Origin: Tachypleus tridentatus
Taxonomy: Eukaryota > Arthropoda > Merostomata > Xiphosura > Limulidae
Reading direction: 5' to 3'
Assembly (NCBI RefSeq): GCF_004210375.1
Contig: NC_134825.1
Location: forward strand, 65,959,558 to 66,023,557
DNA length: 64,000 nucleotides
Shown here: one piece after another, positions 8,509 through 57,527 of the stretch
Layout of the letters: each line of letters starts with the position of its first letter
Position numbering within the stretch: the stretch's first letter is position 1
Made by a program: the position numbers and the translations under genes
Notes under the pieces: model-generated
What the model saw: only the letters and a program-made list of their open reading frames with translations
Told to the model about the DNA's origin: nothing
Database searches by the model: none

Positions 8509-10303
8509 TTACCAAGGCCTCCACACACACTCAGACTTCGATTTATCTAAGTGGCAGGAAGGAACAGGAGAAATGGGTTCAAAGACTGGCACTATTTTGG
8601 TCTTGTTGGAAGAGTAGGCTACTGGACTAGGACTGGACTCTGATCGATCACTTGCAGCAGGGCTTAAAATACCTGATGAACCCAAAACACTAACTGGATC
8701 GGACATGACAGAGAAATCGGTTGAAGAGTATTTAGGCAGTAAGTTCTGGTGTAACCGATTGTTCAAGTTGTCGCCCGGGAGAAGGAATGCAATTTCTCTC
8801 GCAGGAAGAAAAGTTGGGACTAGGCGTATGTCACTCACGAAGTCGTTGTTGCTCACAGTAGCAGAAGGGTTGGAGACTGTGGGAACATGCACGTGGACAG
8901 GACTCGTAGATGATACTTTGTTAGTCCTACTAGACGAGCAAGTCTCATTCAAGCCAGACAAACAATCAGTTAAGTGGTTTAAGACATGATGGCGCAAAGA
9001 AGAGTCAACTCCGTCCACTGTGCCCAGGAAACGACTGACCTCATGTGCACACTCGTTAAAGCCAGATCGGAAGGTTGCCAAGGATGAAGCAGCTCGTCTT
9101 TCCCGTTGTTTCAGTTGCATGTTTTGTAGATGTCTAACAGTCATCTCCAAAATATCTGCCTTTTCTAACTTCGAGTGACGAGCGTTCTATAAATTAAGTG
9201 AATGATGAGTAACTCAATTCTAGATCAAACATTTGACTTTAAAAAAAAATAACACAGACACACATTATATATATGGAGTTAAACACCACAGTTGTGAAAT
9301 TAATTAAATAAACAATTATACTAATGCAAATTGTACAAATATCACTCCTGATTTTTTTTTTTTTTTAATAGTACGATGTTTGTCTAGTAGCAATAACGTC
9401 ACCAGTGTCTCGTAACGGGTGACAAGAAATTTCTATACCAAGCATTCTTACACCCCACCTACACATGATGCATTATACACGACACACATATCTGGCTATA
9501 CCAGTTACGTGACACCACGTGCGCGAGGTTTCTCGCACGACCTACGTACGACCTTAGTTACAGCACGTACAAGTTAAAGCTAGGAAATAAATGTCAATGA
9601 CTCGTATTAACGCAATTACTGAGGTATTAATGAAAATTACAATAACAACACGCATGTTTGGAATCTTTATATTATAAATTTAGCTATAATGTTAGGGGTA
9701 AATGTCAAGTTTAAACACAAGCTATATATTTATTAGGATTAAAATAAAAAAAAGGCTAAGAAATAGATAAACAATTTTTTACAAATATAAATTTAACAAT
9801 CCTTACATCTTTTTTCAGAGAATCTAGAATTAAGTTTTTCAGTTCCCCAAGGCTGTTATTGATACGTTCACGTCGCTTCCTTTCCATAATTGGTTTAGTG
9901 CTCTGTAAAAACGATAATATAAAACTTCTGTAAGAACTATACCAACAGAACATACTTTAACAGATAAAGACAGAATCTATAGAACAGATCAACAGTTAAT
10001 ATTAAGAGTTATGTGGTGTCTTCCACAGAAAGTTGCTACAAATCTACAAGAACATTAATTATGAGTAACAGGTAAAATTACACACTCTTAAAAAGAATGT
10101 AACCATCTATAATAAAACGTCTACCCTCCTAACAATGAAGTAATATTGTATGTTTTGGAGGATATTAAAATATAACTTTTCGATAGTAAATAATATTTCA
10201 AAAAATAAATTAATTACGTACATAAAATTCAAATCATGTTGTTACTTACTCTACGGTTACTGATGGTTTTCATTGGCGATTGTTCTGAAGGCATCGTCTT
10301 CAT
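8509..10303 (-). CDS. HES1-like: HES-A: Hairy/E(spl)-family bHLH-Orange-WRPW repressor
   Basis: DNA-binding transcriptional repressor of the Hairy/E(spl) class, normally a Notch effector that recruits Groucho. Three coding exons on the minus strand: 10303-10250, 9902-9807 and 9186-8509, all phase 0, with GT-AG introns (donors GTAAGT and GTAAGG). The joined product is 275 aa. bHLH is about residues 21-78, including [13 protein letters not shown] with the family's proline in the basic region; Orange domain about 88-128 ([16 protein letters not shown]); an IAFLLP motif near 172-187; Ser/Pro-rich linker; C-terminal VWRPW then TAA. A second ATG at 10294 has the better context (A at -3) and gives MPSEQSP, matching MPAEKSP of HES-B, so translation may start there (272 aa). 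It lacks the pre-Orange intron present in HES-B. HES rather than Hey, because of the proline and WRPW rather than YRPW. Orthology within the HES family is not resolved. Confidence 0.95.
9187..9806 (-). other. HES-A intron 2
   Basis: 620 bp, GTAAGG...TATAG. Contains a CpG-rich patch near 9505-9560 with CACGTGCGCGAG and an imperfect GTGCG/CGCAC palindrome, possibly regulatory. Confidence 0.8.
9903..10249 (-). other. HES-A intron 1
   Basis: 347 bp, GTAAGT...ACAG, interrupting just upstream of the bHLH basic region. No internal feature seen. Confidence 0.85.
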
Positions 10304-10491
10304 GGAAATTCTAAATAGAGTTAAGACTTGTTGAATATATATATGTTTACCAAAGTAGCTCACAGTAGCTAGTTAGCTCACAACCCAAGAAAAACAGACG
10401 ATATCTAGCAATTGAGTACAAGAACGTGCTTAACCAGACCTGTACACACGCACGTGGCAAAAGAAACTGTACGACAGTACCCTGGAATTTA

Positions 10492-10525
10492 GGTTTTATT
10501 ACTTGTAGGGGTCAATGGAGCATGC
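10492..10525 (-). promoter_or_regulatory. Shared core-promoter block of HES-A
   Basis: On the minus strand GCATGCTCCATTGACC (10525-10510) is the counterpart of the HES-B block, followed by an AT-rich TAATAAAACC (10501-10492) where a TATA element could sit. About 200-230 bp upstream of the ATG. Confidence 0.5.
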
Positions 10526-10537
10526 AGTAGCGAAAAG

Positions 10538-10569
10538 CATGAGATACGAAGGGGCGACACTTTCCCACG
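10538..10569 (-). promoter_or_regulatory. Degenerate Su(H)/CSL paired site in HES-A promoter
   Basis: Read on the minus strand, CGTGGGAA (10569-10562) is a perfect CSL site. Exactly 16 bp on, where HES-B has its partner site, the sequence is ATCTCATG (10545-10538), two mismatches from TTCYCACR. The position, spacing and a GGGAAAG context match HES-B, so this looks like a paired site that lost one half. Confidence 0.65.
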
Positions 10570-10735
10570 CTGCTCTGGACCAATCCGGAGCGCAAACACG
10601 CTTATTTGCAGATAGGTGTTATTGTAACAACTCGTGGCACGTGATTGCTGACTCGTCGTGGAACATTCCGGTGCACGTTTTAACCCCCCTCCTTTTTTTC
10701 CTTCCATCTTAACGATAAGGTAGCATTACCCCTCA

Positions 10736-10848
10736 ACTTGTAAATCAAAGCGCCCAGCTAGACATCTGCCGCGGCTGCTGCAGTGCACGTGCCATACTTT
10801 TTTATCAGCAAGCGGTGGAACGCGCCAGAGTGTGGGAAAACTCCGCCT
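10736..10848 (-). promoter_or_regulatory. Distal conserved module upstream of HES-A
   Basis: Read on the minus strand: AGGCGGAGTTTTCCCACACT (10848-10829), then about 34 bp, then TGGCACGTGCA (10794-10784), then TTGATTTACAAGT (10748-10736). The 20-mer contains a perfect CSL site (TGTGGGAA, 10831-10838) overlapping GGGAAAACTCC, which resembles a Rel/Dorsal site; CACGTG is a HES or Myc-type E-box. The same blocks recur in the same order upstream of HES-B. Confidence 0.7.
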
Positions 10849-10972
10849 TACTCAAGAAGAAACCCTAAACACAAGCTTGCCAAACAGCCGTTCCTAGCGT
10901 AAACATCTTATCGCTTAGTAAGAACAACCGGTTCCAACGTATTTCAGCACGCATGCCACGCACGTGGGTTTG

Positions 10973-12321
10973 TGCTCTTGCGGCATATCCACACTGTACC
11001 CATGGGTTTCGTAACAGCGGTTACGTAACTCACATCTTCTAATCAGGTAGACCTATCCTGACCCAAAGATGTTTGTACATAAATATATTAAATAAAATGT
11101 GTATAACAGATTTGAAAATATATATGAGTTTCTCATCCTTTTATTTCGTAAAATGGTGAAACAAAGCCACCTGTTACTAAACATGGTTTTATTACGTTTT
11201 ATCTTTAAATCAACAGGTTACAAACAATAAGTTATTTGTGTACAACAAACAGACAAATCACTAGCATTGTTTCAAATTCAATATTTGGCATTTTGTTGAG
11301 TTGAATCATCGATCTCATCTGATTAAAAAATCCTAGCTTCTGATCAAAGTTGTTTATATTTAAAGACTTGAAACATTTCAATTATTTATTATTCTATTTA
11401 TTTATTTGAACGCTAAACAGTATAACAGTGTCTCTGCTTCCCCCGGCTGTGGAGTCCCGTTGTTGTGTACGTTAACACTGTGTATACAGGTAGCGTTTCG
11501 TCGTCCGTGATTACGAACTACCGACCACTTTTCATTTTATACCTTATTATTATGAATATTTGCGTGTGACCTTTTCAGTTATTTTTAGTTTAAACTTTAG
11601 GTACGTAATTAATTCAAGAAAAATAAACTAGATGTACTTCCTCAGAGTCCCCGAACGTGTTCTTATTCAAGAATAAATAAAACCAAAATGAAAATTAAAT
11701 ATTTTCAATTTTCGCTTTTGAAGTTCATATGCCATGCTATGTTGTAGCCTGCATAGTGCCGAATGTTTCTCATGATTCGTGTCATGCGCACGTTTTACTA
11801 ACGTCATGGAAGTACACACTGCAACGTTAAATGTTCCTTATGTGATGTCATTTCAGAATCAACTGACTGACTGAAAGACTATTGTGCGAATGGTGTAAAC
11901 AGGTGACCATCCAGGCGACCTCCAGCGCCGTTTCAGGTAAATAAATAAATAATGATTATAAACTATTTGTTTTTAAAGAAATAAATAATTTGATATTAAT
12001 AAATCATAAAACCTTATTGTGATGTATAAAATTAATAAAAGTTATAGTTTCCCATTTTGAACTGTATTAGGCGAAAGGTCTGTTCAGCATTTAATAAAGC
12101 AGATATATTGTGGTTGACATATTATTACATTCTTTACTCTAACTCGTAAGTTCTTAAATTGATTCACTTCGCTGTCCTTTGTGAGAAAATTAAACTTTAC
12201 TACTTAATTTCTAAAGGACATAATCAGTCCGTAAATTATTAGATAAAGGATTGTTTTAAGTACTGACGGTAACGTTTACCGTAACTTTTTGGAGTCTTAA
12301 ACTCCGAAAAACATTTTTTTT
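10973..12321. other. No gene recognised; upstream of HES-A
   Basis: G+C falls off beyond about 11060. A CAG|GTAAAT donor-like site at 11936 has no supporting exon. Confidence 0.55.
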
Positions 12322-28370: not shown

Positions 28371-29725
28371 CAGGGTGAGCCAAAAGTAGGTGGACAGCAT
28401 TTGGAATAGGTTTATGTATCGGTTATATTAATGCAATTATATATTATAACTATGTTGCAACTATATTATTTGTGTTATATAATTACAATTTTATAATTAC
28501 ATTTGTTTTAATTTAATCTGTTTTCTTTTTTTTTAGATTGTTAATAGAACCCATAATGTCAAATACTTTAAATACAGATAAAAGAATATGGGTGTTAAAA
28601 GAGTATTGGAAATCTCAAAATACTGAAACCGTAAGGAGAAAGTGGGTTGAAACATTTGATACTCCAGCTCCAAAAAAGACAAACCATTTACCGTATCCGT
28701 GACAAATTCGACGCCACTGGCTCAATCCTTAATGCTGCTAAAACTGGTCGACCCAAAACAGTCTGTACAGAGAATAATAAGCAACGTGTTGCCGATGCAT
28801 TTGTTCAAAGTCCAAACAAATCCACCAGAAGAGCTTCTATGGAATTGAACATACCACAAACCTCTATTAGGCGAATTATAACGCAAATTGGGTTGAAACC
28901 CTATCGACCACAACTAATTCATGGCTTATTGGAGATGATCCAGACAGGCGACTGCAATTTAGTGAAATTATGCTGAACAAGATTGAAGAAAACCCAGGAA
29001 TGTTAGATAACATTGTGTGGAGTGATGAAGCTTCTTTTAAATTATCCGGTCGTGTCAATAGACATAATTATGTTTACTGGTATAGTGAGAACATGCATTT
29101 AACATTAGAACAACAGCTAAATCAGCCTGGTGTCAATGTTTGGGGTGGTATTTCAAGTTCTGGTGTTTATGGACCATTTTTTTTGGACGGAACAATTACA
29201 GGAGATAAGTATCTCGAAATTCTAAGGAATCAAGTTGTTCCCCAGTTACAGCAACAACCTAATTTACATGACTTTTATTTTCAACAAGATGGGGCCCTCC
29301 ACATTATTCAAAGGAGTTCGTGAGTATCTTGATGAAACATTTCCATTGAAATGGATTGGTCGAAGAGGTCCAATCGATTGGCCGGCACGTTCACTGGACT
29401 TGACCCTATGGATTTTTTTCTTTGGGGAGTACTCAAGGAAAAAGTTTATAGTCAAAACCAAGAAGTGTCGGTGATTTAAAAAATTACATAAGAGATGCAT
29501 TTCAAGAAATTAATGCCCAGAGTGACTTGTGCAAAAATGGTTGTCGAAGCGTAAGAGGTAGACTTCAAAGCTGTGTAAATCAAGAAGGAAAACAATTTGA
29601 GCATTTGCGTTAATAAATAACATTTTATTTTCATTAATATAATTGTCTTATTACATATAGTTGTACGTATACGTGATCTCTAAATAAATGTTTTTTTACT
29701 GTCTACCTACTTTTGGCTCACCCTG
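28371..29725 (+). mobile_element. Mariner/Tc1-type DNA transposon, frameshifted
   Basis: A complete-ended 1355-bp element. The 27-bp terminal inverted repeats (28371-28397 and 29699-29725, starting CAGGGTGAGCCAAAAGTAGG) differ at one position, and a TA duplication flanks both ends (28369-28370, 29726-29727). The transposase reading runs from ATG 28556 to about 29613 but shifts frame several times (near 28690, 28930-28970, 29310, 29410, 29470). Visible catalytic landmarks are WSDEASFKLSG (first Asp), FQQDGA (second) and WPARSLDLT (third). The N-terminal part (28556-28930) looks like paired helix-turn-helix DNA-binding domains. The mutations make it non-autonomous, but intact ends could still be moved by a related transposase. 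It sits inside a Jockey-like LINE. Confidence 0.93.
28556..29613 (+). pseudogene. Broken mariner-type transposase
   Basis: Coding remnant of the element at 28371-29725. The first frame opens at ATG 28556 and stops after 44 codons; later frames carry the helix-turn-helix segment (28647-28930), the first two catalytic aspartates (28970-29310), the third (about 29320-29470) and the C-terminal tail (to about 29613). At least four frameshifts separate them, so no functional enzyme is expected. Confidence 0.85.
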
Positions 29726-31380
29726 TATTTACTCGAGAAAGGTGTTTAGGACTATCCTCATTATATATGCAGTATCTGTCTAGTTCACTCACTAGTTCGT
29801 TTTTCCTCCAATTTTTGTCAAAATAATTTATTGTACTATGTATGAGTCTATCTGCTGTTGTTGCCATGTGTGCATATTTATGCACGAATTCTGATTATGT
29901 AGTTCTGGGTACATTATAAGCTGTTGTAAGTAGTGTATTTTGTATTGTTTGTAGTTCGGCTTGTACGAGTTTTTTACTTGCATTTATCCATGCAGGGACT
30001 GTATAGTCAATTACAGGTCTAATGTATGTTTTATAATATTATCTGCTGTTGCTCCACTATTTTTACCAGTTAGACTCTTAGCATAGTTTGTTCTTGGCCA
30101 AAGCTTTGTTTTAATATTATTTATGTGATTTATCCATGTTAATTTAGAGTCGAGTGTTAGTCCTAAAATTTTGTAGATGTAGCGGAGTGCTCCATTCATA
30201 TAGATTTCTGCTTGTGTTTTTTTACGTTTAGTTAACTTTGCGAATACCACTAGTTGTGTTTTATTTGTGTTTATTTTGATTCTATATTGTTGACAATATT
30301 CACTTGTTCTATTCAGTTTGGGTTGTATGTTCGTGGCTACTATTGTTGATGTTGGTGCACTTTTCCAGACTGCCATATCGTCAGCTAACTGTGAGGAGTA
30401 TTCATTATTTGAATCTTTTAGATGATGAATAGAATAGAGCTAACAACCCCTCCTTGAGGGACACCAGCTTCTGGAGTAAAACACTCTGAGAAGGTCCCTT
30501 CAACATTGACTCTACATATTTTGCTTTCCAGAAAGTCCAACAGCCAGCGAATAATTCCCCGCGATAGTCCCATTTCTTGCATTTGGAACCGGAGACCGTT
30601 ATGCCATAAAGTGTCGAAAACCTTCTCAACATCGAGAAAGCAAGCGACAGCGCATTCTCGTTTATTAAAACTATCAACAGTTGCATCTCTATGGTCTGTT
30701 CTAAATGGTCTGTAGTTTGTCTGAATTTTCTGAATCTGTTTTGTTCTTCTGGTAATTTTGATGTTATTTCCAGGTATGTGGAGAGTCTGTTACTGATTAT
30801 TCGCTCAAGAATTGTGTCTACACAGCTGGTCAGGCTGATTGGTCGGTAGCTGTTTGGGTTATATTTATTGGCTGGCTTTCCTTCTATATGGAACATTTGC
30901 ATGCTTCCAAGAAACTGGGATATAACCAGAGTATAATGATAGATTAAAACATTGCTGTGAGATTTTCAAATAATTTCGAAGTGTCCTTTTTTAAGGAGGA
31001 TGCCTTGTATGTCGTTTTCTCCTGGAGATTTGTTTTTGGTCTTTGTTATTGCTTCTATGAGTTCTTGTACGGGAGTTGTGTTTGTTAGCATTGTGTTTGT
31101 GTATTCGTTAGTGCTGTTGATTTGACAGTCATTTAAGTTGACTGGGAAGAGCGGTTCAAATAGTTCAATGTTATTCATTATAAAGTTGTTTACTTTGTTA
31201 TAAAAGTATGCGTTCATGTCTGGGTTGTTGTTTGTTTTAAGCGTGTTTTGATGTTGTTTGAATGCTTCTGCATTTTCTTTGTTTGTATGTGCTGTGGTAT
31301 TATTGTGTTCTCGTGGTAGGTATTTTCTTATTGCTGTGTTTCCATTTGTGAGTCTTTTTAAGTATGTCCAAAATTGTTGT

Positions 31381-31519
31381 GGATTTCGCGCAAAGCTACT
31401 GGAGGGCTATCTGTGCTAGCCGTCCCTAATTTAGCAGTGTAAGACTAGAGGGAAGGCAGCTAGTCATCACCACCCGCCGCCAACTCTTGGGCTACTCTTT
31501 TACCAACGAATAGTGGGAT
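31381..31519 (-). repeat. SINE family A tail fragment
   Basis: Only the 3' half (ATTTCGCGCAAAGC to GAATAGTGGGATT). It lies exactly between the truncated Jockey-like LINE and the Penelope-like fragment, marking a composite junction. Confidence 0.85.
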
Positions 31520-35245: not shown

Positions 35246-35480
35246 GTGGCCTGGCATGGCCAAGCGCGTTAAGGCGTACGACTCGTAATCTGAGGGTCGC
35301 GGGTTCGCATCCCCGTCGCGCCAAACATGCTCGCTCTTTCAGCCGTGGGGGCGTTATAGTGTGACGGTCAATCCCACTATTCGTTGGTAAAAGAGTAGCC
35401 CAAGAGTTGGCGGTGGGTGGTGATGACTAGCTGCCTTCCCTCTAGTCTTACACTGCTAAATTAGGGACAGGTAGCACAGG
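35246..35480 (+). repeat. SINE family A, tail truncated
   Basis: GCCTGGCATGGCCAAGCGCG head; ends at AGGGACAGGTAGCACAGGAC. Confidence 0.85.
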
Positions 35481-36027
35481 ACCTATAAAGCAAATATTTA
35501 TGTGCCTACCCTACCAGTCTTAATAATGTCCAAATGTTTCTTTCTGATCATCGTTACTTTGTGAGAATTGTTGATAAGTCTCTGAGAGATCTTGGCTTTC
35601 ATTACGCACACTGGGAAATCTGACTCCACTCCAAAGTGTGATACTTTACCAACTGTAAGATTACAAGGCCGCTTAAAAAATGATTGCAAGTGTCACGTGA
35701 TTTATATACTGATCACGAGTTTCAGGGCGAGGGATACGGGTCAAATAATTATGTATTTCCCCAAAGCTAGTATGTGGCCACTTTTGAGGATGATCGGTCC
35801 TGAATTCTGTAACAGCAAACAGATCAGAAACTGGAACCAAACCGTCTGAAATAGTTAAGATAATTTCGTTGGTTAACTGTCACGTAAACATTTCTGAATC
35901 TCTTGTAGTCAAGAATCCAGACCCCTGCAATAGTTAACTTAAAATCATATTGTTGTTAGTAAATGATTTGTGATCGAGAACTGAAACCTGGTTGTCTGTA
36001 ATTACTAAGTACGATCGTACTTAGAAT

Positions 36028-36180
36028 GTAGGGATGAGCCACAAGACAAATGTCTGCCGTATTCAACCCATTACTATATGATGCTTACAAATAACCATGT
36101 AAGATGAGTTATAGCCTTATTTGAGCACCTAATTGCCATTATCAAGTGTTTCACAACTTGTGCATTTTCAAGTATCAATG
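36028..36180 (+). repeat. Diverged tandem-type direct repeat, copy 1
   Basis: ATGATGCTTACAAATAAC, CTTATTTGAGCACCTAAT and GTGTTTCACAACTTG blocks recur at about +295 bp. Confidence 0.65.
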
Positions 36181-36324
36181 AAAAGTGTTGCTGAAGCAGA
36201 GAACCGAAGATTAACGAATCAGAGAATGTTCATCCTTTTTCTTTTATTCTTCTCCAACGCTGGCCGATCAATAAGCGTAGTTTTAGCATGACAGAAAAGC
36301 ATTTGAAAACATGCTGTCTTTAAG

Positions 36325-36462
36325 CATGACAGTATTTAGTATGTAAGGGTGGACCGAGAAGCCTGCTACTCTATGATGCTTACAAATAACTACTCAAGTT
36401 AAGTTATAGTCTTATTTGAGCACCTAATACCATTATCGAATGTTTCACGGCTTGTATACTAG
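36325..36462 (+). repeat. Diverged tandem-type direct repeat, copy 2
   Basis: Partner of 36028-36180, with the same blocks in the same order. No coding capacity recognised. Confidence 0.65.
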
Positions 36463-36528
36463 TAATATTATTCAGTTCTTCTTGCACACGTACTTTTGAG
36501 GGGAATTAATAAAAACAAAACAAAAAGT

Positions 36529-36826
36529 ACTATTTAGTAGTACTGGCCCGGCATGACCAGGTGGGTTAAGACGTTGACTCGTAATCTGAGGGTTGCGAGC
36601 TCCAATCCTCGTCGCACCAAACATGCTCACCCTTTCAGCTGTGGAGGCGTTATAATATTCGGTCAATCCCACTATTCGTTGGTAAAAGAGTAGCCCAAGA
36701 GTTGGCGGTGGGTGGTAATGACTAGCTGCCTTCCATCTAGTCTTACACTACTAAATTAGGGACGGCTAGCTCAGATAGCCCTCGTGTAGCTTTGCGCGAA
36801 ATTCAAAAAACAAACTATTTAGCAGT
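36529..36826 (+). repeat. SINE family A with 13-bp target-site duplication
   Basis: ACTATTTAGTAGT (36529-36541) and ACTATTTAGCAGT (36814-36826) bracket a full-length copy. Confidence 0.92.
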
Positions 36827-37993
36827 GAGTTTAGCTTATATTATTTCTATATTTCTGTTTGTGACTTTTCATTGCAGAAACATGATACCTACTAAAACAG
36901 TTTCAGTAAACGTAAATAAAGAACGAATAATCTAAATTAATATTTAAGATATCTAAGAGGTCAAGTATTTATGAAACTGACAGATCTGTATACATGTTAT
37001 TAACATAAAAGTTTAAAAACACTAGTTTCGTAATTATCTAAAATATACATTCATTACATAGTGGTCCAACTTTCTTCAAAATTTCAGCGGCGCTGAGCCT
37101 GGCAGCTGTGTGTGTGTGTGTATGCGTGGTGAGATACAGCCTCATTAAGTGACATCACTTTAGCATGTAATGGAGCAGATTGTATGCACACACAGTAATC
37201 TGGAGTGATGTTGGAGAAGCGATTCCAGCTTCACTGGCTCCCAATGTAATCCAAAAATTAGAGACACTGATATGATATTAGCAGTAGATATTACTATTGA
37301 ATTATAAAAATAAAACAAATGTTCAATTATTAACCAATTTCAATGAAATTGTAAAAAGAAATAAAGATTAGAAACAAGTAACAAAATTGAATTGCTATAA
37401 TTAAATATGATGTAGCAATGCAATTGCCAGAAAAAACAAAAGCCAGGTAGAAAGGAATACACAAAACGATACAAAAAGCCCTACATAAGTAACCAGTAAG
37501 TACTGAGTTCATCACACTAGCGTTATGACTAGATATCACTATTTACTTCAAATGCTTTTATTTAAACCTGAATTCATGAAACTGAAAGGAATTCAACGCT
37601 TTGTTATAGATAAAATGGAGATATTTGGCTACTTATACAGTGATTTTTAAACAGTTTAGTGTACTCATACCTAACTCATACTTAAATTCTACTTTATACT
37701 ACTTGTAGTAGAAGTTAAAATGATAGCATTGTTTAGATTCCTGTAGTCAGTAACTGGGATGCGCTTTAGTTAATATGGTATCATTATTTAACTGTCAGAT
37801 GTATGTTACTGTAGTAACTAGATTTCGGTGAATCTAAACTGAATACCTAAACATCAATTATAGCAATAATAATAAACGTGTTATGGAGTTAGTAAGGGAA
37901 AATATCGTCAGACGACGATACGAGGTGACGTCACGTTGCGTACCAATTTGAGTGATAGATCGGAATGGCCAGATGCACATATGATTGTTTATG
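36827..37993. other. No gene recognised
   Basis: AT-rich; a small CpG-bearing patch at about 37905-37975 (CGTCAGACGACGATACGAGG). Confidence 0.5.
37107..37122 (+). repeat. (GT)n microsatellite
   Basis: Short GT run in otherwise non-repetitive DNA. Confidence 0.75.
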
Positions 37994-38224
37994 ACATTCG
38001 CGCAAAGCTACTCGAGGGCTATCTGCGCTAGCCGTCCCTAATTTAGCAGTGTAAGACTAGATGGAAGGCAGCTAGTTATCACAACTCACCGCTAACTCTG
38101 GGGCTACTCTTTTATCAACGAATAGTAGGATTGAGTGTTACATTATAACTCTCCCACGGCTGAAAGAACGAGCAGGTTTGGTGCGACGAGGATTCGAACC
38201 CGCGTGCCTTAACCACCTGGCCCG
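37994..38224 (-). repeat. SINE family A lacking its anticodon arm
   Basis: Minus orientation. The head jumps from GGATTCGAACCCGCG straight to TGCCTTAACCACCTGG, deleting the anticodon-arm segment seen in the other copies. Confidence 0.88.
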
Positions 38225-38302
38225 CACATATGAACAATAATCGTTTGTATAGTTTCACATCAGTACTGTAATATTCTCCTGACTCCTAGCTCTTTGTTCC
38301 CC

Positions 38303-38410
38303 TATAGATGGCTTAATTGTATGTGTAAGGGCTTATCACGCTAAAAATTGGATTTTAATACTTGCGCTGGGCACAGTACAGATAGCCCAATATGGAGCTC
38401 AGTGGAAGTG
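38303..38410 (+). repeat. SINE family C, diverged
   Basis: ATGGCTTAATTGTATG head, TGGGCACAGTACAGATAGCC, CAATATGGAGCTCAG tail. Confidence 0.5.
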
Positions 38411-38808
38411 GTTTGTACGCTGAACCGAGAGACGACATGGTCTACATGTCACTTTGCCTTTGTTTCTATTGGTCTGATAAACGTCTTTTACATGTAATGG
38501 ATTAAATAAGCTTAAAATTCATAAACGATATAAATGAGTGTCGTAAGTGAAAATTTTGCTATTCAAATTTCATATTAAAAATAATATTTGTGAATGTCTG
38601 CATAAGTAATGTGATAGTGCATTGGACTGTACATAGTGCATGATCTACAACAATTACAAAAGGTTATAGTAATTATGATGATAAATAGTTACGCCACTGT
38701 GTAGTGCCATCACCAGTCCATCTGCTAACATCAGCTGCGTAAGTCTTACTTCCGTGCCTGAGGGCTTAGAACCAGTTTCTGTGATAGCAGCACACCACGC
38801 GCACTGAG

Positions 38809-38920
38809 AGGCGGAGTTTTCCCACACTACGCACGAGCCAGGGTTATGAGAAGAAAGTGGTGGCACGTGCAGTTCTACTAGCATCTTCTAGCTCAGATTA
38901 CCCCTGATTGATTTGTAAGT
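38809..38920 (+). promoter_or_regulatory. Distal conserved module upstream of HES-B
   Basis: AGGCGGAGTTTTCCCACACT (38809-38828, identical to the HES-A copy), 32 bp, TGGCACGTGCA (38861-38871, identical), then TTGATTTGTAAGT (38908-38920, two mismatches). It is about 1.4-1.5 kb upstream of the HES-B ATG, farther than in HES-A; a SINE (39459-39722) sits in the added DNA. Confidence 0.7.
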
Positions 38921-39445
38921 CACAGACATAACACACATACGCGGATGGCTAATCAGCTTTGTAGAGTTATGTTATCTATGCCTTTATGTAACTGTCGGAA
39001 TTTGTTCCACAGTATCAGTTAATACAGTCAAGTAGCAACGCATGTGATACATACAAACAAATTTTAAAAACACAAAGTTGTTTTCATACGTTTCAAAGGT
39101 ATACTGTAATAAAAATAACTAAACATTTTGTAGGCTTATACCAGCCCTATGTTAAACATATTATTATTTCTAATTAATGTTTACACTTATAAAAATTATT
39201 GTGCAATGTTAGCTTAATTTGTGAGTTGGATTTAGGAATAACATAAATCTCTTAAGATTTTCACGGACTACGGCCGGAAATGTTAACAGCTACGATACTT
39301 ATTCGATAATTCAAAGCATTTTAATCATTATGAATTTTACTATCCTTTGGAATTGATGAATAATATTAAACGCTTCTAACCACTTTGTTATACAAGATTA
39401 GCATTTTTAAAATATTTAAATATTTTTTATTTTGTTTACTTCTGA

Positions 39446-39738
39446 TGTCTTAATATCGGGGCCCAGCATGGTCAAGTGGGTTGAGGCGTTCGACTCGTAA
39501 TCTCAGGGTAGCTGGTTCGAATCACGGTCGCACTAAACATGCTCGCCCTTTCAGCCGTGGGGGCGTTATAATGTGACAGTCAATCACACCATTCGTTGGT
39601 AAAAGAGTAGCCCAAGAGTCGGCCGTGGGTCGTGATGACTAGCTGCCTTCCCTCTAGTCATACACTGCTAAATTAGAGACGGATAGCACAGATAGCCCTC
39701 GAGTAGCTTTGTGCGAAAAACACAAATGTATTAATATC
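39446..39738 (+). repeat. SINE family A between HES-B and its distal module
   Basis: TGTCTTAATATC (39446-39457) and TGTATTAATATC (39727-39738) flank a full-length copy. The insertion helps explain why the distal module lies farther from HES-B than from HES-A. Confidence 0.9.
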
Positions 39739-40028
39739 AACATAATATTGAAGTCATATTGCAAGATTTTTGTGGTAAATAGAATTATACTTAAGAAATT
39801 AGTTTTATTCCTTTAAAATTTACAATTGAAACTAACAAAATATGTGAAGAACGACGACGTGTATGATATGTATAAAACTTTGTAAATTTAAAATAAAATT
39901 TCGTATGGATAACATTCAATAATATTATCAGCAAAAATATGCAACCCTTTAAGGCCCATGTTTGTCGTCTCCAGGCGCTTCCTTACCTCATCTAAACAGC
40001 GGGTGCTGCGCCTGCCTCTGTGATCTAG

Positions 40029-40060
40029 TGTGGGAAAGAACTCGCTTCGCTGTTCTCACA
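40029..40060 (+). promoter_or_regulatory. Su(H)/CSL paired site (SPS) in HES-B promoter
   Basis: TGTGGGAA at 40029-40036 and its inverted partner TTCTCACA at 40053-40060 both fit YGTGRGAA. They lie head to head with exactly 16 bp between them. That is the SPS geometry known from Drosophila E(spl) genes and vertebrate Hes1, where two CSL-Notch-Mastermind complexes bind cooperatively. It lies about 260-290 bp upstream of the ATG. Confidence 0.85.
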
Positions 40061-40070
40061 CGCCCGACTC

Positions 40071-40095
40071 GCATGCTTCATTGACCTTTTAAATA
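40071..40095 (+). promoter_or_regulatory. Shared core-promoter block of HES-B with TATA-like tract
   Basis: GCATGCTTCATTGACC (40071-40086) matches HES-A at 15 of 16 bases, at nearly the same distance from the CSL site. It is followed by TTTTAAATAA, a possible TATA element. The transcription start is not placed. Confidence 0.5.
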
Positions 40096-40117
40096 ACAAT
40101 CAAGTCACGCGTTCACG

Positions 40118-40125
40118 TTCCCACA
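40118..40125 (-). promoter_or_regulatory. Additional CSL site in HES-B promoter
   Basis: TTCCCACA, the reverse complement of TGTGGGAA, is a third perfect CSL consensus site within 100 bp of the paired site. Confidence 0.6.
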
Positions 40126-40317
40126 CATGCACTTGTTGAGTGGTACTGAGGAGGCCACACATCAGGGGTTATGATTTAAACTGAGAAACTCAACTGTTAG
40201 AGTCGCATTCCGTTACGCGGTGTTTATAGAAGGAAGTCGGTGATAAACGTGAAATGTAAGTTTGAGCTGGAGTTTTGGACTTAAAAATACTTTTGTTAAC
40301 GTAACTTTTAAGGTAAA

Positions 40318-43300
40318 ATGCCTGCTGAAAAATCGCCATCAAAAACTAGTGACTACCGACGGGTGAGTATTTAATATTATTTTTAAGTACAGAGGTAATT
40401 CAATAAAAAATAAAGTTATACTTTCACTTCAGGTTTCTAATATTGTAGCAAGCTTTCAATTGCAAATCGTAAGTTCCAGCCTACGAGCCTAAAAACCTGT
40501 GGTGTTAAATATATAATTATTAATATAAAATTTAGAACGTTTCGGTTCAAGTACTAATTGTAGAGGCGTCGTTGGACATTGGCACATCTCACGGATGCAG
40601 TTCACAGTGCTTCGGAGGTTTCTTACGTGCGTTATAATTACAAAGTAATAGAGTGATATAAATATGTTATATTTACTCTAAATAATAACTGCTTCTGGGG
40701 GGACCAAGCCACTAATTTTTTGAGTAGCTAGTAAACACCCTTGGTTATTAGTAATTAATTAAATAGGTAAAATTCTTGAAAAATTTAGTTTTTTATAGTA
40801 ATTATTAAGTTAATCGTACCTTATTTAGTTGAACTTGTCTGAATAAATAATATTTTTGTAATGTATTAAAACTGTAACTTGAAGACATTTACATTTATTA
40901 ATTTTATGGATTAGTGTGAAGATACGTTACAACTGGAGTAATACCCTCGGTAGATATAAGGGTGATTGGTGTGATAAGTAGGTTTAATTTATCGCATTCA
41001 GATTAGAACCGTCAAGGCGTTGTGAAAACTCGTGGAATAGGCTTAACTATCACTTCGTTTGTAATGGTATAGGTGTATTATCTACTTAGTGCTTTAGCGT
41101 AACTTGTTGCATTTTTGAATCATATTGGTTATGCATTTACCTTTTTTGAATGTAGAATGTAAAATTCCCAACTCTGTAAGCTGTGCTTATGCTATTCTTA
41201 ACATATACAATGTACTTATATTTATCATTGTGTTATTATTATATTATCACCAGCTCGATTCCTTATTTGTGTTTTTGTCGTGGTTCGTATAGACTACAAA
41301 ACCCATTATGGAAAAACGAAGAAGAGCCAGAATCAACCAGTGTCTCACCGAACTGAAGACTCTGGTTCTAGATGCGTTACGCGAAGATGTAAGTAATATT
41401 TTGTACGAATCTAAACTAGATTAATAATGCTCTAGTAAAACTTAAAAGTTACGAATATTGAAATACAAAATCTAAACCTGTATTTTAATTGTTCCATGGT
41501 GGGTCTCTTGTCATTTTGTGTATTTAAAAAAAAAAAAAAAGGTTAAACAGTGTAAAGTCATAATTACAGACCTCGGTTAGATTGTTAATAACAACAATAT
41601 ATATTATTTTTTACCCATTAGCCATCCCGACATTCAAAGCTTGAAAAGGCAGATATCTTGGATATGACTGTCAAACATCTTCAAAATGTGCAGAGACAGC
41701 AAGTGGCAGGTAAGTCTCGTCTGATCAGTAGCAGTGTAATGTGTATGTTTTGTTAATGTCATATTTGTGATTCTGTAGTTCGGTCTTAATGAACCATTTA
41801 ATGTTATACCTGTGAGTGTCTTAACGCTGTTATAAGTGTATCTTATGTTTACAATAATGCAATATTAACGAGTTTCGGGAAAATTAAACTAAGCTTTACT
41901 ACCTTTACAATGTCTATGACATGTTTGCTACTTCCTTGTATGAATGCGTTTAAAGAGGTAATGGACCGAACATGTGGTAGCAGCCACGTCAAAATAACTC
42001 GTTTATTAAATCAAGTAATTGCTTTACATAGTTTTACATCTTATTTTATATTAAACATATTAAGTCCTCGAACTTTACTCAGTCCAGGAACCGTTTTCAA
42101 AAATATTGTCCTGCCCTTGAACAAACACCAAATTGTTCTTTTAACAGATATCTCGCTGACGTCACAGGAACTGGACTGTGGACACCTAGAGGCTTTATAC
42201 TTATGTGTGTCGAATCAAGAAGAATCACAATCTCGTCTATTTATTTGTTTTTGAATTTCGCGCAAAGCTACACGAAGACTATCTGAGCTACCCGTCCCTA
42301 ATTTAGTAGTGTAAGACTAGAAGGAAGACAGCTAGTCATCACCACCCACTTTTTGGCTACTCTTTCACCAACGAATAGTGGTAATAACCGTAACATTATA
42401 ACCCCCACGGCTGAAAGGGCGAGCCTGTTTTTTCGTAACGAGGATTCAAACCCGCGATTCTCGAATTGCGAGTCAAGTGCCCTGACCATGCCGAGCCTTC
42501 GTATATTTTTAAACAATTTTCTTTTTTACATTTATACACAAAGTTCATCTGTTCAGTACTTTTAAAACAAAACCTCAGCGGTATTAACAACTTCAGCTGT
42601 TGTTTTGCACTCTTTAGAAAACTAGTTTAAACTTATCTTGCAAAACAACACTGAAGCTATTGTCGTTTAACACAAGGGCCTGTCTGTGTTTTGCCCACCA
42701 TAAGTATCGAAACCTAGATTCTAACGTTGTAAGTTCGCAGACATTCCGCTTTGTCACTTGTAGTTATCTTCTTTGCTGTTGCTAATTGATGCTATACACC
42801 GTTATACCTTTGTAACTCCATACAATCGAAATCAAACTAACCAAAGCTAATATGTTGAAATAAAAATTTCATACTTTGTGGGTATTCATTACATAGATTT
42901 AAAACTTTGTACTTAACATTAGTATGAAAGAAAGTAACAGTGATTTTAATTTTATGTATATTATGACGAGGCTTACTTTTCATTTCAGCTACAGTAACAT
43001 ATATCTCTCCTATTTTTCTGGCCCTCTATGTAGTATTATTTACATGTTTCTTTATTGTTTCACTTTTTTTCTCTCTAGCTGCCATTGTAACGGATCCCAC
43101 CGTTCTTAGTAAGTTCAAAGCTGGGTTCAGTGAATGTGCCTCTGAGGTTACCCGCTATCTCAATAGAATAGGAATAGAAAAAAATCTTCGTCAACGTTTA
43201 CTGAACCATCTGGGGAACTGTATTTCAAGTCTCCAGACACCAACGTTGTTCAGTATAGCAGCCACCACAGGTACAGCTTCTACTGCCTTTCCAGGAATGA

Positions 43301-44238
43301 ATTCTTCCGTTCCAGATGCCGTTAGTCATTTTCAACCAATGAGAGTCCAGATACCCAGTAACATATTCACTACAAGCTCTGATAACATAGTGCCTCCCAG
43401 GACCTTGCAGAACGTTACAGTGGATATTAACAATAACGTTCTCATGGCTCCTAATTCAGCTACAAATCCATCAACAATTTCTGATAATTTTGAAACAATT
43501 CTGGGGAGTCTTTCTCTTATTCCAAGTCGCCTTCCGAACGGAGATATTGCGTTTTTGCTTCCAAGAAAAGCTTTTGCTTCTGTTTCTAATGATCTTCCTA
43601 ATAATATTATGATAGATTCCAGAACCACGGATCAAACAAATTATAGGGTTAGCACGAGTAACACCGCCACTCCCAGTTTCTCATTTTGGGACCATTCACT
43701 GTCACCCGAAAACCCGCGAAGACACAGTTCATTAAGTTGTGTTCCCAGTCCCTGTTCTAGTGATTCTAGTTCTGAAGTCTTCGCTGAATCTTTGATGGGA
43801 TCGCCAAAAGAATCTTCACCTTATGTAACAATTAGTAAAATTGACCATTCATCCCAAAACCTTTCATCCAAGAGTCCAAGCGTTGTTCAAGATATTTCAC
43901 TGTCGAGATTTAACACTTCCGTATCAACTCTGAGGAAAAAAGATGTCCAGTCTACCATCGCTAATAAACATCGACCAAGATTCTTAAGTGTAGAATGCGT
44001 TTCAAGTGGTTACTCAACCATTAATCACATGGAAAATCATTTGACTATTTCTCCACAGAGACTTCTAACAGATAAAAACCTAGTGACTAGGCAAGTTGGA
44101 ATTCACAGTGAACATAATAGTACGTTCAGTAGTTCATGTCTTGTCGAGAATATGTCAACACATAAGATTCCAAGTGTTCATCATCAGCCAGGTAGATCGT
44201 CCCAAGGATCGGACAATGCTGTTTGGCGCCCCTGGTGA
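40318..44238 (+). CDS. HES1-like: HES-B: Hairy/E(spl)-family bHLH-Orange-WRPW repressor
   Basis: Paralogue of HES-A with four coding exons: 40318-40362, 41293-41388, 41622-41709 and 43079-44238. Introns 1 and 2 are phase 0 and intron 3 is phase 1; donors are GTGAGT, GTAAGT and GTAAGT. The product is 462 aa, long for a HES protein. bHLH is about residues 17-75 ([16 protein letters not shown], then [20 protein letters not shown]); Orange domain about 88-128 ([17 protein letters not shown]); [16 protein letters not shown] at 223-238; a long Ser/Thr/Asn-rich linker; C-terminal VWRPW and TGA. The four-exon layout, with an intron between the helix-loop-helix and Orange domains, is the Hes1-type arrangement. 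The start codon sits in a good context (AAAATGC). Predicted nuclear repressor binding Groucho through WRPW. Intron 3 carries a SINE. Family assignment is secure; the closest named relative (hairy, deadpan or Hes1) is not decided. Confidence 0.96.
40363..41292 (+). other. HES-B intron 1
   Basis: 930 bp, GTGAGT...TATAG, at the same codon position as HES-A intron 1. No repeat seen. Confidence 0.85.
41389..41621 (+). other. HES-B intron 2
   Basis: 233 bp, GTAAGT...ATTAG, at the same position as HES-A intron 2. Confidence 0.85.
42246..42498 (-). repeat. SINE family A in HES-B intron 3
   Basis: Minus orientation relative to the window, so antisense to HES-B; tail TGAATTTCGCGCAAAGC, head ending ACCATGCCGAGCC. 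Internal short deletions. Confidence 0.88.
42661..42768 (-). repeat. SINE family C in HES-B intron 3
   Basis: Minus orientation, diverged: CACCATAAGTATCGAAACC, TTCTAACGTTGTAAGTTCGC. Confidence 0.6.
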
Positions 44239-44691
44239 TTAATCATAAAGTCTTGGTGGTTTATTTCCTTTATATAATGTTAAGGCAAAAGGCTAACTTC
44301 TGTTGTTTCAAAATTTGCGAGTAGTTGCTGATTTTAAAGTATTGTAGTCGTTTTAGCTTACCATATTTTCATTAATGTTACCTTTCAAATGAAGATCTTG
44401 GAGCAGTCTTTGTGAATTTGATGCAATTTCTGTTTACATGAAGACTGTTGTATTTCGATAAAATGGTACATGAGACCACAAGAACACGAATTATTGGTTC
44501 AATAACATCCTTAAAAAAATTAAAAAGGTTTTTGCTTTCACTCAGTCTGAAAAAAACATTTTTATCGTAAATATGAAAGAATTGCTCGTTAGATCTAACG
44601 AATGTAATAAGAATCAATTATTGACTGCAGGCGAAAAGAACATTGCATACTATTTGAGCAGTGTTTTAAATATTTAAAAGTATGAAGTCAG

Positions 44692-55120: not shown

Positions 55121-57527
55121 GTTTATCGATTGTTCAAGTCTCTACACAATGTTGACCATATGTAATAAGAATGACATGCTAACATAAATAAACAATACAT
55201 AAACATGTGTAAATAAATTAGTATCAAAGCATAACTTATTAATGCTAGAAATTTAATATCAAATATTTAATGAATATAATTATCAAAACACTGTGCTTCT
55301 GCGTAATTGAGCTGGAAAGCATAAATACAAAACATAACAGTATATTGAAAAGTGGCGGAGTTACAATAACTGGGGGATGCATAATAATGTTCTGTCCTTG
55401 AACAAAAGTATGGGGACATGTTCCCCCGTTAAAAATTTGTTCTGTTGTGTGTGATAGCGTTGTTAACATAATACACTATCCTCATCTTCCAGACTAGAGT
55501 AATCTAACCGTATAAATAAAGCTGAACTTGCATTGCTTGTTTTCGTCTTGAAAGCCACAAATTCCTCCATGACAACTGTAGTGTTGTTGGGTGACGTAGT
55601 GTAAAACGACTCTGTCAATGTTTCTTCAACTATGCACGTATCTTTATAACATTTGAAATTCTGAGTTAGATAATTTCGTTTACTTTCACTAAAAATAACA
55701 AAAACATGTTACTATATTTAACTTCAAGCTAAGCTCTAATCGTGTTTAAAATAAAACGTTGATCCACTCAGTTTTGTTCAACCAATCATAACAATTTAAT
55801 AAAATATAACGTGTGAGCTGATAAAATTGGAAGTTTTCGAAGAAGTTAGAACTCTTCGGACTTATAACCGAATAATGATAAACTTTGAATAAATAATAAT
55901 AATAAAATACCTTATCTTAAGCTCAGTTGATGAATTTTCTAAAAACCTAAAAAAATGTCGACCTTTTTATTTAGAATGAAAATAATTAAGCTATAGTATA
56001 TTGCAACACCTAGTTTCTCTATCAGCAATAACTCGCAACGTATGATCTAACAAATATAGATTTTGATAGGCTAATAAAAATATACCAAGATTATTTAATC
56101 AATTTCTCGTAGCACTAACCTGGTAGCAGGATAAAGAACTTTATCGTGTTTGCTGTATTGATTTTCTAATACATTCTAGGAGATCTTGTTTAACCTGGTA
56201 CTTTACTGGATTCTGTGTATTACACCTAGCTGTCTTCATAATCAAATAATTGCGACTCCATAACACCGTTTTTATTAGATACATGAAGATGTTCATATTC
56301 GGTTTACTTTATGTTTCCAAATGAGCCTCAAGTTTCTCTTGTATATTTGCAGGAAATTACTAATACAGCTATATCTTACAGTTTGTGACACTTGTGTTCC
56401 TCCGTAGCTAGCACTTTAAATATTGACTCTATCATCTTGTGTTTTATATATATAAGTACAATACCGAATAAAAATAAACGGAAAATTCGTAAAACAAATC
56501 AAAATATATATTTTTGCATATTATGCAATGCAAAAATGAGCTACAAGTGATTTTAATGGGAACGTAATCAGAAACGTTTTAGACTAGACAGAAAACATTT
56601 ACATCAAATGGTTAAAAAATCCTTAATTTGTTGTTATAACAAGAAAAAAAATAAAGTAGAAATAAACTTATAATAAATTCATTTGTATTCTAACCAACCA
56701 AAAAAGGAAGTCAAACGAAAATAAGTTCTAAACATGCATCTTCAAAACCCACGAATAGAGAAGAAGCGAGTGAAGTCCATAAGAGTCAATGCCGTAATAT
56801 GAAATACACTGACTAAAATCCACTTTGAAATTACCACAAACACTGTGTTCGATGTCGTTCTTATCTTTTAATAAACCATAAAATACAACCATAATAATTT
56901 CTATTATGTCAAACATAAAACACCACCTGGTGCAGTAAACAATACAGTAATAATAACAATAAATGAGCAACAACAACAAAATATACTTTTGTATGGTGTG
57001 GTTACCGGACACGCTTCTATGACAACGTGACAAATATGAGGTAGCGTGCACGATCTAGCATCACGCCCGGCAGGCGATTCCCACGCTTTTAACTGGATAT
57101 AAATTCTTATCTCATGCGTACTTATGTCATCAGCAAACACGTGCCATTTGGCGTCGAAGCCAGGTCAATTTGAGCATGTGCTCATTGAATTTCAATGCTG
57201 TCTTGAACTCTTAGGAACAAAAGTAACACCACAGAAATCAATAAAAAAAAAAAAAGTCTCTACATGTGGCGCACGTTCCTTCAACTTTAACACTGGTGCA
57301 TTGAACCGCATTACCATAGAGACGAAAAACAAATCCTTTATAGCTGGCCAGTAAATCTCACGGTTGGTTCCTGTTAACGTATTAAACACTTGCACGGTGT
57401 ATATATTTATTCCTAACCATCACATTCCCCAACATCTTTAAATTTATAAACCTTAGGTATTTATAACATCAGCACATGGTAATTAAGCTATATAATTGAT
57501 ATTAGTACATTATTTTTTCACATTATT
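55121..57527. other. No gene recognised
   Basis: AT-rich. Short frames at 56728-57140 include FADDI, but nothing else around it resembles a reverse transcriptase. Confidence 0.5.

Follow-up and report, generated by a model that had tools for sequence, protein, structure and literature searches.

Our results suggested that the two HES-family genes of the window (the whole 64-kb stretch of DNA analysed here) carry copies of one non-coding module in their upstream regions. The module consists of an identical 20-mer with a CSL site (block 1) followed by an identical 11-mer with a CACGTG motif (block 2). Judging from the sequence, it probably represents the upstream portion of a HES promoter or enhancer of the ancestral gene, with a Notch input and HES autorepression, which was duplicated head to head and kept by selection in both copies.

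The two genes stand back to back (head to head) and are transcribed divergently. Gene 1 occupies 8509-10303 on the minus strand, with predicted coding exons at 10303-10250, 9902-9807 and 9186-8509. Gene 2 occupies 40318-44238 on the plus strand, with predicted coding exons at 40318-40362, 41293-41388, 41622-41709 and 43079-44238. The splice sites of both genes were called by eye, so these structures, with three and four coding exons respectively, are predictions. Both products contain a bHLH basic region, an Orange domain (Pfam Hairy_orange, E 1.1e-16 for gene 1 and 2.6e-13 for gene 2) and a final WRPW, which is the type of protein encoded next to a Notch-responsive HES/E(spl) promoter. The start codon of gene 2 is at 40318 and that of gene 1 at 10303 or at the in-frame ATG 10294, the latter being the counterpart of the gene 2 start when the protein N-termini are compared. 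The two proteins share 114 of 256 aligned residues. At the fourfold coding sites 15 of 47 are identical, a figure that comes from few sites and from a protein alignment that is poor in its C-terminal part. An intron before the Orange domain is present in gene 2 (41622-44238) and absent from gene 1 (9186-8509), so it was lost or gained since the duplication.

Block 1 (AGGCGGAGTTTTCCCACACT) is identical at 20 of 20 positions between 10829-10848 (minus strand) and 38809-38828 (plus strand). In the gene 1 copy, a 20-mer with CSL site TGTGGGAA, the CSL consensus lies at 10831-10838 on the plus strand; in the gene 2 copy it lies at 38819-38826 on the minus strand. When upstream regions of 2.0 kb and 2.7 kb were compared with the SINE copy left out, the longest exact match was 20 bp, versus a maximum of 16 bp in 300 dinucleotide-shuffle pairs. 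No third copy of block 1 was detected in the 64 kb at up to three mismatches, and none in 100 shuffles.

Block 2 (TGGCACGTGCA), found by sequence match at 10784-10794 (minus strand) and 38861-38871 (plus strand), is identical at 11 of 11 positions and contains a HES/E(spl)-type CACGTG. Taken alone it is unremarkable (the window has 2 matches at up to one mismatch vs 0.53 expected, and 10 of 100 shuffles had at least as many). In contrast, only 4 of 20,000 shuffles gave an 11-bp identity at a similar distance after the 20-mer. Its TGGCACGTG part was found four times in the window versus 0.17 expected, three times in the two upstream regions and a fourth time at 57138. The optimal E(spl) site, or ESE box (consensus TGGCACGTGYYA), has no exact match in the window; its TGGCACGTG part is present. 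In a zebrafish Her binding series, the strongest site also carries TGGCACGTG (PMC3404119). The initial annotation had called the motif an E-box. CACGTG is indeed there, but within TGGCACGTG it appears to fit the repressor class (HES/E(spl) sites of class C) better.

The order and orientation of the two blocks relative to each gene are the same, and the gaps between them are 34 bp (gene 1) and 32 bp (gene 2). Both identical blocks, their positions and their arrangement had been annotated correctly. The term "distal" was wrong: the module lies 442-554 bp before the gene 1 ATG at 10294 and 1398-1509 bp (1.40-1.51 kb) before that of gene 2, upstream of the proximal promoters. Part of the difference in distance is due to a 262-bp SINE-like copy (39459-39720, plus strand, detected by blastn) that lies downstream of the module of gene 2 and ahead of the promoter.

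To compare the loci as a whole, the gene 1 locus (15302-8301) was aligned by blastn with the gene 2 locus (35318-44400), with SINE copies masked and E up to 1. The 15 matches comprised exon 3 (E 2.5e-11), exon 2 (3.6e-6), the module (9.8e-6), exon 1 (0.004) and 11 matches at E of at least 0.027. With SINEs masked, the module match (10848-10784 vs 38809-38871, 66 columns, 75.8%) was the only non-coding one that ranked with the coding exons. Short-match blastn gave 12 matches, namely exon 3 (2.2e-7), the 20-mer (5.2e-5), an A+T-rich 16-mer (15274/40500, 0.013) and nine at E of at least 0.20. The local alignment of the module scored 75.0, whereas 300 mononucleotide shuffles reached at most 34.5; without block 1 it still scored 42.5, and the shuffles at most 31.5. 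Since the fourfold sites have low identity and block 1 is fully identical, unconstrained DNA of such age should not match, and it is likely that selection has preserved the module at both genes. The blastn and 20-mer shuffle tests thus agree with the original proposal that conservation between paralogues, in DNA that is otherwise hardly alignable, implies a cis-regulatory function.

The resemblance could also have arisen by chance, or by a recent gene conversion, without any function. The blocks are short and the third block described below is near chance, as this explanation would predict, but the shuffle tests of the 20-mer, of the 11-mer spacing and of the module alignment all argue against chance. 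Because the adjoining DNA is unlike, a tract of recent conversion could not have extended past either edge of each block. We regard this explanation as very improbable. No more credit can be given to a dispersed repeat or transposon piece that came to lie near both genes by accident. The window is repeat-rich and has 25 matches of one SINE-like family of about 260 bp (the query copy at 39459-39720 and 24 further blastn matches, 75-92% alike, on both strands). Against a repeat origin, the 20-mer has only two copies in 64 kb, blastn-short of the window gave no further copy of the module, and both copies keep the same order and sense relative to their genes.

A CSL site would take up only part of block 1, and the AGGCGGAGT half of the block is therefore probably bound by a second factor. 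The CSL site had been annotated as fused to a Rel-like site; the CSL consensus was found inside both 20-mers, while the Rel part is doubtful, with no exact canonical match. According to the full form of this reading, a Rel protein (Dorsal/Relish class) would bind block 1 jointly with CSL, and the E-box would be the site of an activating bHLH protein. In each copy, GGGAAAACTCC and the CSL site overlap. The loose 11-mer GGGRANNYTCC, a pattern written to resemble this very site, occurs at only two places in the window, both at block 1, and Notch, Dorsal and Twist inputs are described as co-occurring in fly enhancers (PMC6706658). On the other hand, no exact match to a Dorsal or 10-bp kappaB consensus was detected at the module, and kappaB sites at up to one mismatch were not above chance in the window (29 found vs 40.6 expected). 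CACGTG is of the repressor class, and no CAYATG Twist-like site exists in the module regions. This composite is quite unlikely in our estimation; overlapping CSL/NF-kappaB sites of mammals were considered as a parallel and not retained. Alternatively, the CSL site of block 1 may be overlapped by a GC-box (Sp/KLF/Btd) site, with everything else as in the preferred explanation. The GC-box consensus KRGGCGKRRY matches exactly at 38808, its sole exact place in the window, but the gene 1 copy has one mismatch, at the base preceding the 20-mer. Moreover, 49 places at up to one mismatch versus 40 expected means that the motif is not enriched in the window, and we assign this possibility a low probability as well. 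As the second binder of the AGGCGGAGT half, an Sp/KLF-like zinc finger and Rel are equally good guesses, and the consensuses used decide neither. No E2F, Runx, Twist or Zelda sites (by consensus) were found in blocks 1 or 2.

A third block, a 13-mer with two mismatches, had also been annotated. The two sequences do match at 11 of 13 positions (10736-10748, minus strand; 38908-38920, plus strand), but the match is weak and near chance, as it was equalled in 110 of 2000 shuffles (a smaller earlier count was 2 of 60). Past block 2, the best alignment in the direct sense was also at chance level, with 454 of 1000 shuffles as good, and block 3 in the direct sense was rejected. In the inverted sense relative to the genes, ATTACCCCT is shared on the plus strand by 10725-10733 and 38897-38905, which are its only two copies in 64 kb. 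This run was equalled in 53 of 2000 shuffles and its alignment score in 16 of 1000, and two copies were present in 2 of 100 whole-window shuffles. Neither the direct block 3 nor the inverted ATTACCCCT pairing is firm; the inverted one is about as good and is suggestive only.

Between the module and the start codon, paired CSL sites occupy corresponding places in the two genes. A Su(H) paired site (SPS) is defined as two head-to-head CSL sites 15-17 bp apart (PMC8494340). The proximal promoter of gene 2 has an exact one with a 16-bp spacer (40029-40060, plus strand), and that of gene 1 has a degenerate one with two mismatches and a 16-bp spacer (10538-10569, minus strand). As three SPS-like sites were found in the window at up to three mismatches with spacer 16, versus 2.0 expected, the degenerate site of gene 1 is suggestive by its place only. 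Block 1 itself is no SPS, for its CSL site has no head-to-head partner at a 16-bp spacer with up to three mismatches in all. The window has 16 CSL consensus sites versus 6.5 expected, and 6 of the 16 are in the two upstream regions (10562 and 10831 for gene 1; 38819, 40029, 40053 and 40118 for gene 2), so that both genes have the upstream CSL sites expected of a Notch-responsive HES/E(spl) promoter. The single CSL site at 40118-40125 (minus strand), downstream of the gene 2 SPS, has no counterpart of the same consensus in the gene 1 promoter.

The proximal promoters also share a 16-bp word (GCATGCTYCATTGACC), which starts 12 bp (gene 1) and 10 bp (gene 2) after the paired CSL site and is perhaps part of the core promoter. 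Its two forms, GCATGCTCCATTGACC at 10510-10525 (minus strand) and GCATGCTTCATTGACC at 40071-40086 (plus strand), are identical at 15 of 16 positions, and no third match was detected in the window at up to three mismatches. The pattern was built from its two copies, so the shuffles, of which 14 in 100 had two matches, do not test it. Neither the SPS nor this 16-mer was among the matches in the blastn of the loci. The proximal-promoter alignment scored 91, versus a maximum of 67 in 300 shuffles, but it covers coding exon 1 and was therefore not counted as non-coding evidence.

CACGTG was found 12 times in the window versus 7.5 expected. Four of the 12 are within 516 bp before gene 1, a stretch that was chosen after the fact, and none is in the gene 2 proximal promoter. 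CACGCG, which we take to be the Hairy site, is present upstream of gene 2 at 38796 and 40106. Self-repression of gene 2 would thus depend on one CACGTG and two CACGCG.

The preferred explanation, an ancestral promoter or enhancer part retained at both genes, suggests the following mechanism. An ancestral HES gene would have been copied together with its upstream element by inverted duplication, and the element retained in both copies. CSL (Su(H)/RBPJ) on block 1, a single site, would repress by default and activate together with the Notch intracellular domain, and block 1 and the paired site nearer the promoter would together give the Notch response. Compared with single CSL sites, synthetic paired sites are reported to be more resistant to the Hairless co-repressor (PMC8494340), so the single site of block 1 could be the repressible part. 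Repressors of the HES/E(spl) type, probably the products of both genes, would then bind TGGCACGTGCA and shut the genes off again, giving self-repression or mutual repression. The autorepression of HES genes and the Notch input to their promoters have been reviewed (PMC5446262). Control DNA retained between paralogues that have drifted so far would point to the core of HES regulation, and its compact pair of sites, one for the Notch input and one for self-repression, can be tested by reporters. The finding would have the greatest weight if block 1 bound CSL and a fixed partner together. We think it rather unlikely that block 1 is such an undescribed composite, in which CSL and a second protein (Rel or Sp/KLF class) share a 20-bp footprint that is fixed and hardly varies, set at a constant distance from the HES self-repression site. 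It would then be an ancient cassette ("Notch on, HES off") of the HES genes of this animal group, and might couple the copies 28 kb apart.

The Drosophila E(spl)-C has SPS and SPS+A modules close to its promoters (PMC3261227), and the present locus resembles it in that the genes are of the HES family and that CSL sites near the promoter stand in head-to-head pairs at a fixed spacing, although the spacer is 16 bp here and 17 bp in most E(spl) cases covered by that source. It differs in its upstream block, a single CSL site within a 20-bp identity plus CACGTG, and in lacking a proneural A site close to the SPS: RCAGSTG (the consensus used) starts nowhere in 10303-11000 or 39721-40317, and one is at 38732 near the gene 2 module. 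Zebrafish her1/her7 are likewise head-to-head HES genes, repressed there by their own products (PMC10859470, PMC3404119), whereas here each gene has its own module copy, about 28 kb apart. The combination of Notch, Rel and E-box had been called undescribed, but the Drosophila E(spl) m5/m8 and sim mesectoderm enhancers are described as combining Notch/CSL, Rel (Dorsal) and bHLH (Twist) inputs (PMC6706658). Twist is an activator there, in contrast to the repressor-class CACGTG here, where the Rel site is a candidate. SPS modules, head-to-head HES pairs and Notch/Rel/bHLH enhancers have all been described, so the kind of element is known. Literature searches by topic (rather than by 20-mer) brought up, in the passages covered, no account of this sequence and none of a CSL composite of 20 bp within HES promoters. 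Judged by titles, which makes this a weak statement, no paper on HES cis-regulation in chelicerates was found.

Several minor features were also recorded. In the 1 kb after each gene there are two K boxes (gene 1) and one K box (gene 2) and no Brd or GY boxes, which is uninformative. ARAGORN found no tRNA in the window, and no papers containing 21 letters of the SINE were found. Overlapping frames at 28635-29474 (plus strand) look by eye like a Tc1/mariner-type transposase; their piece 28871-29323 gave no Pfam match. At 30405-30965 (minus strand) there is a reverse transcriptase fragment (RVT_1, E 1.6e-8), and its neighbouring frames in 30011-31406, which have no Pfam match, may belong to the same element.
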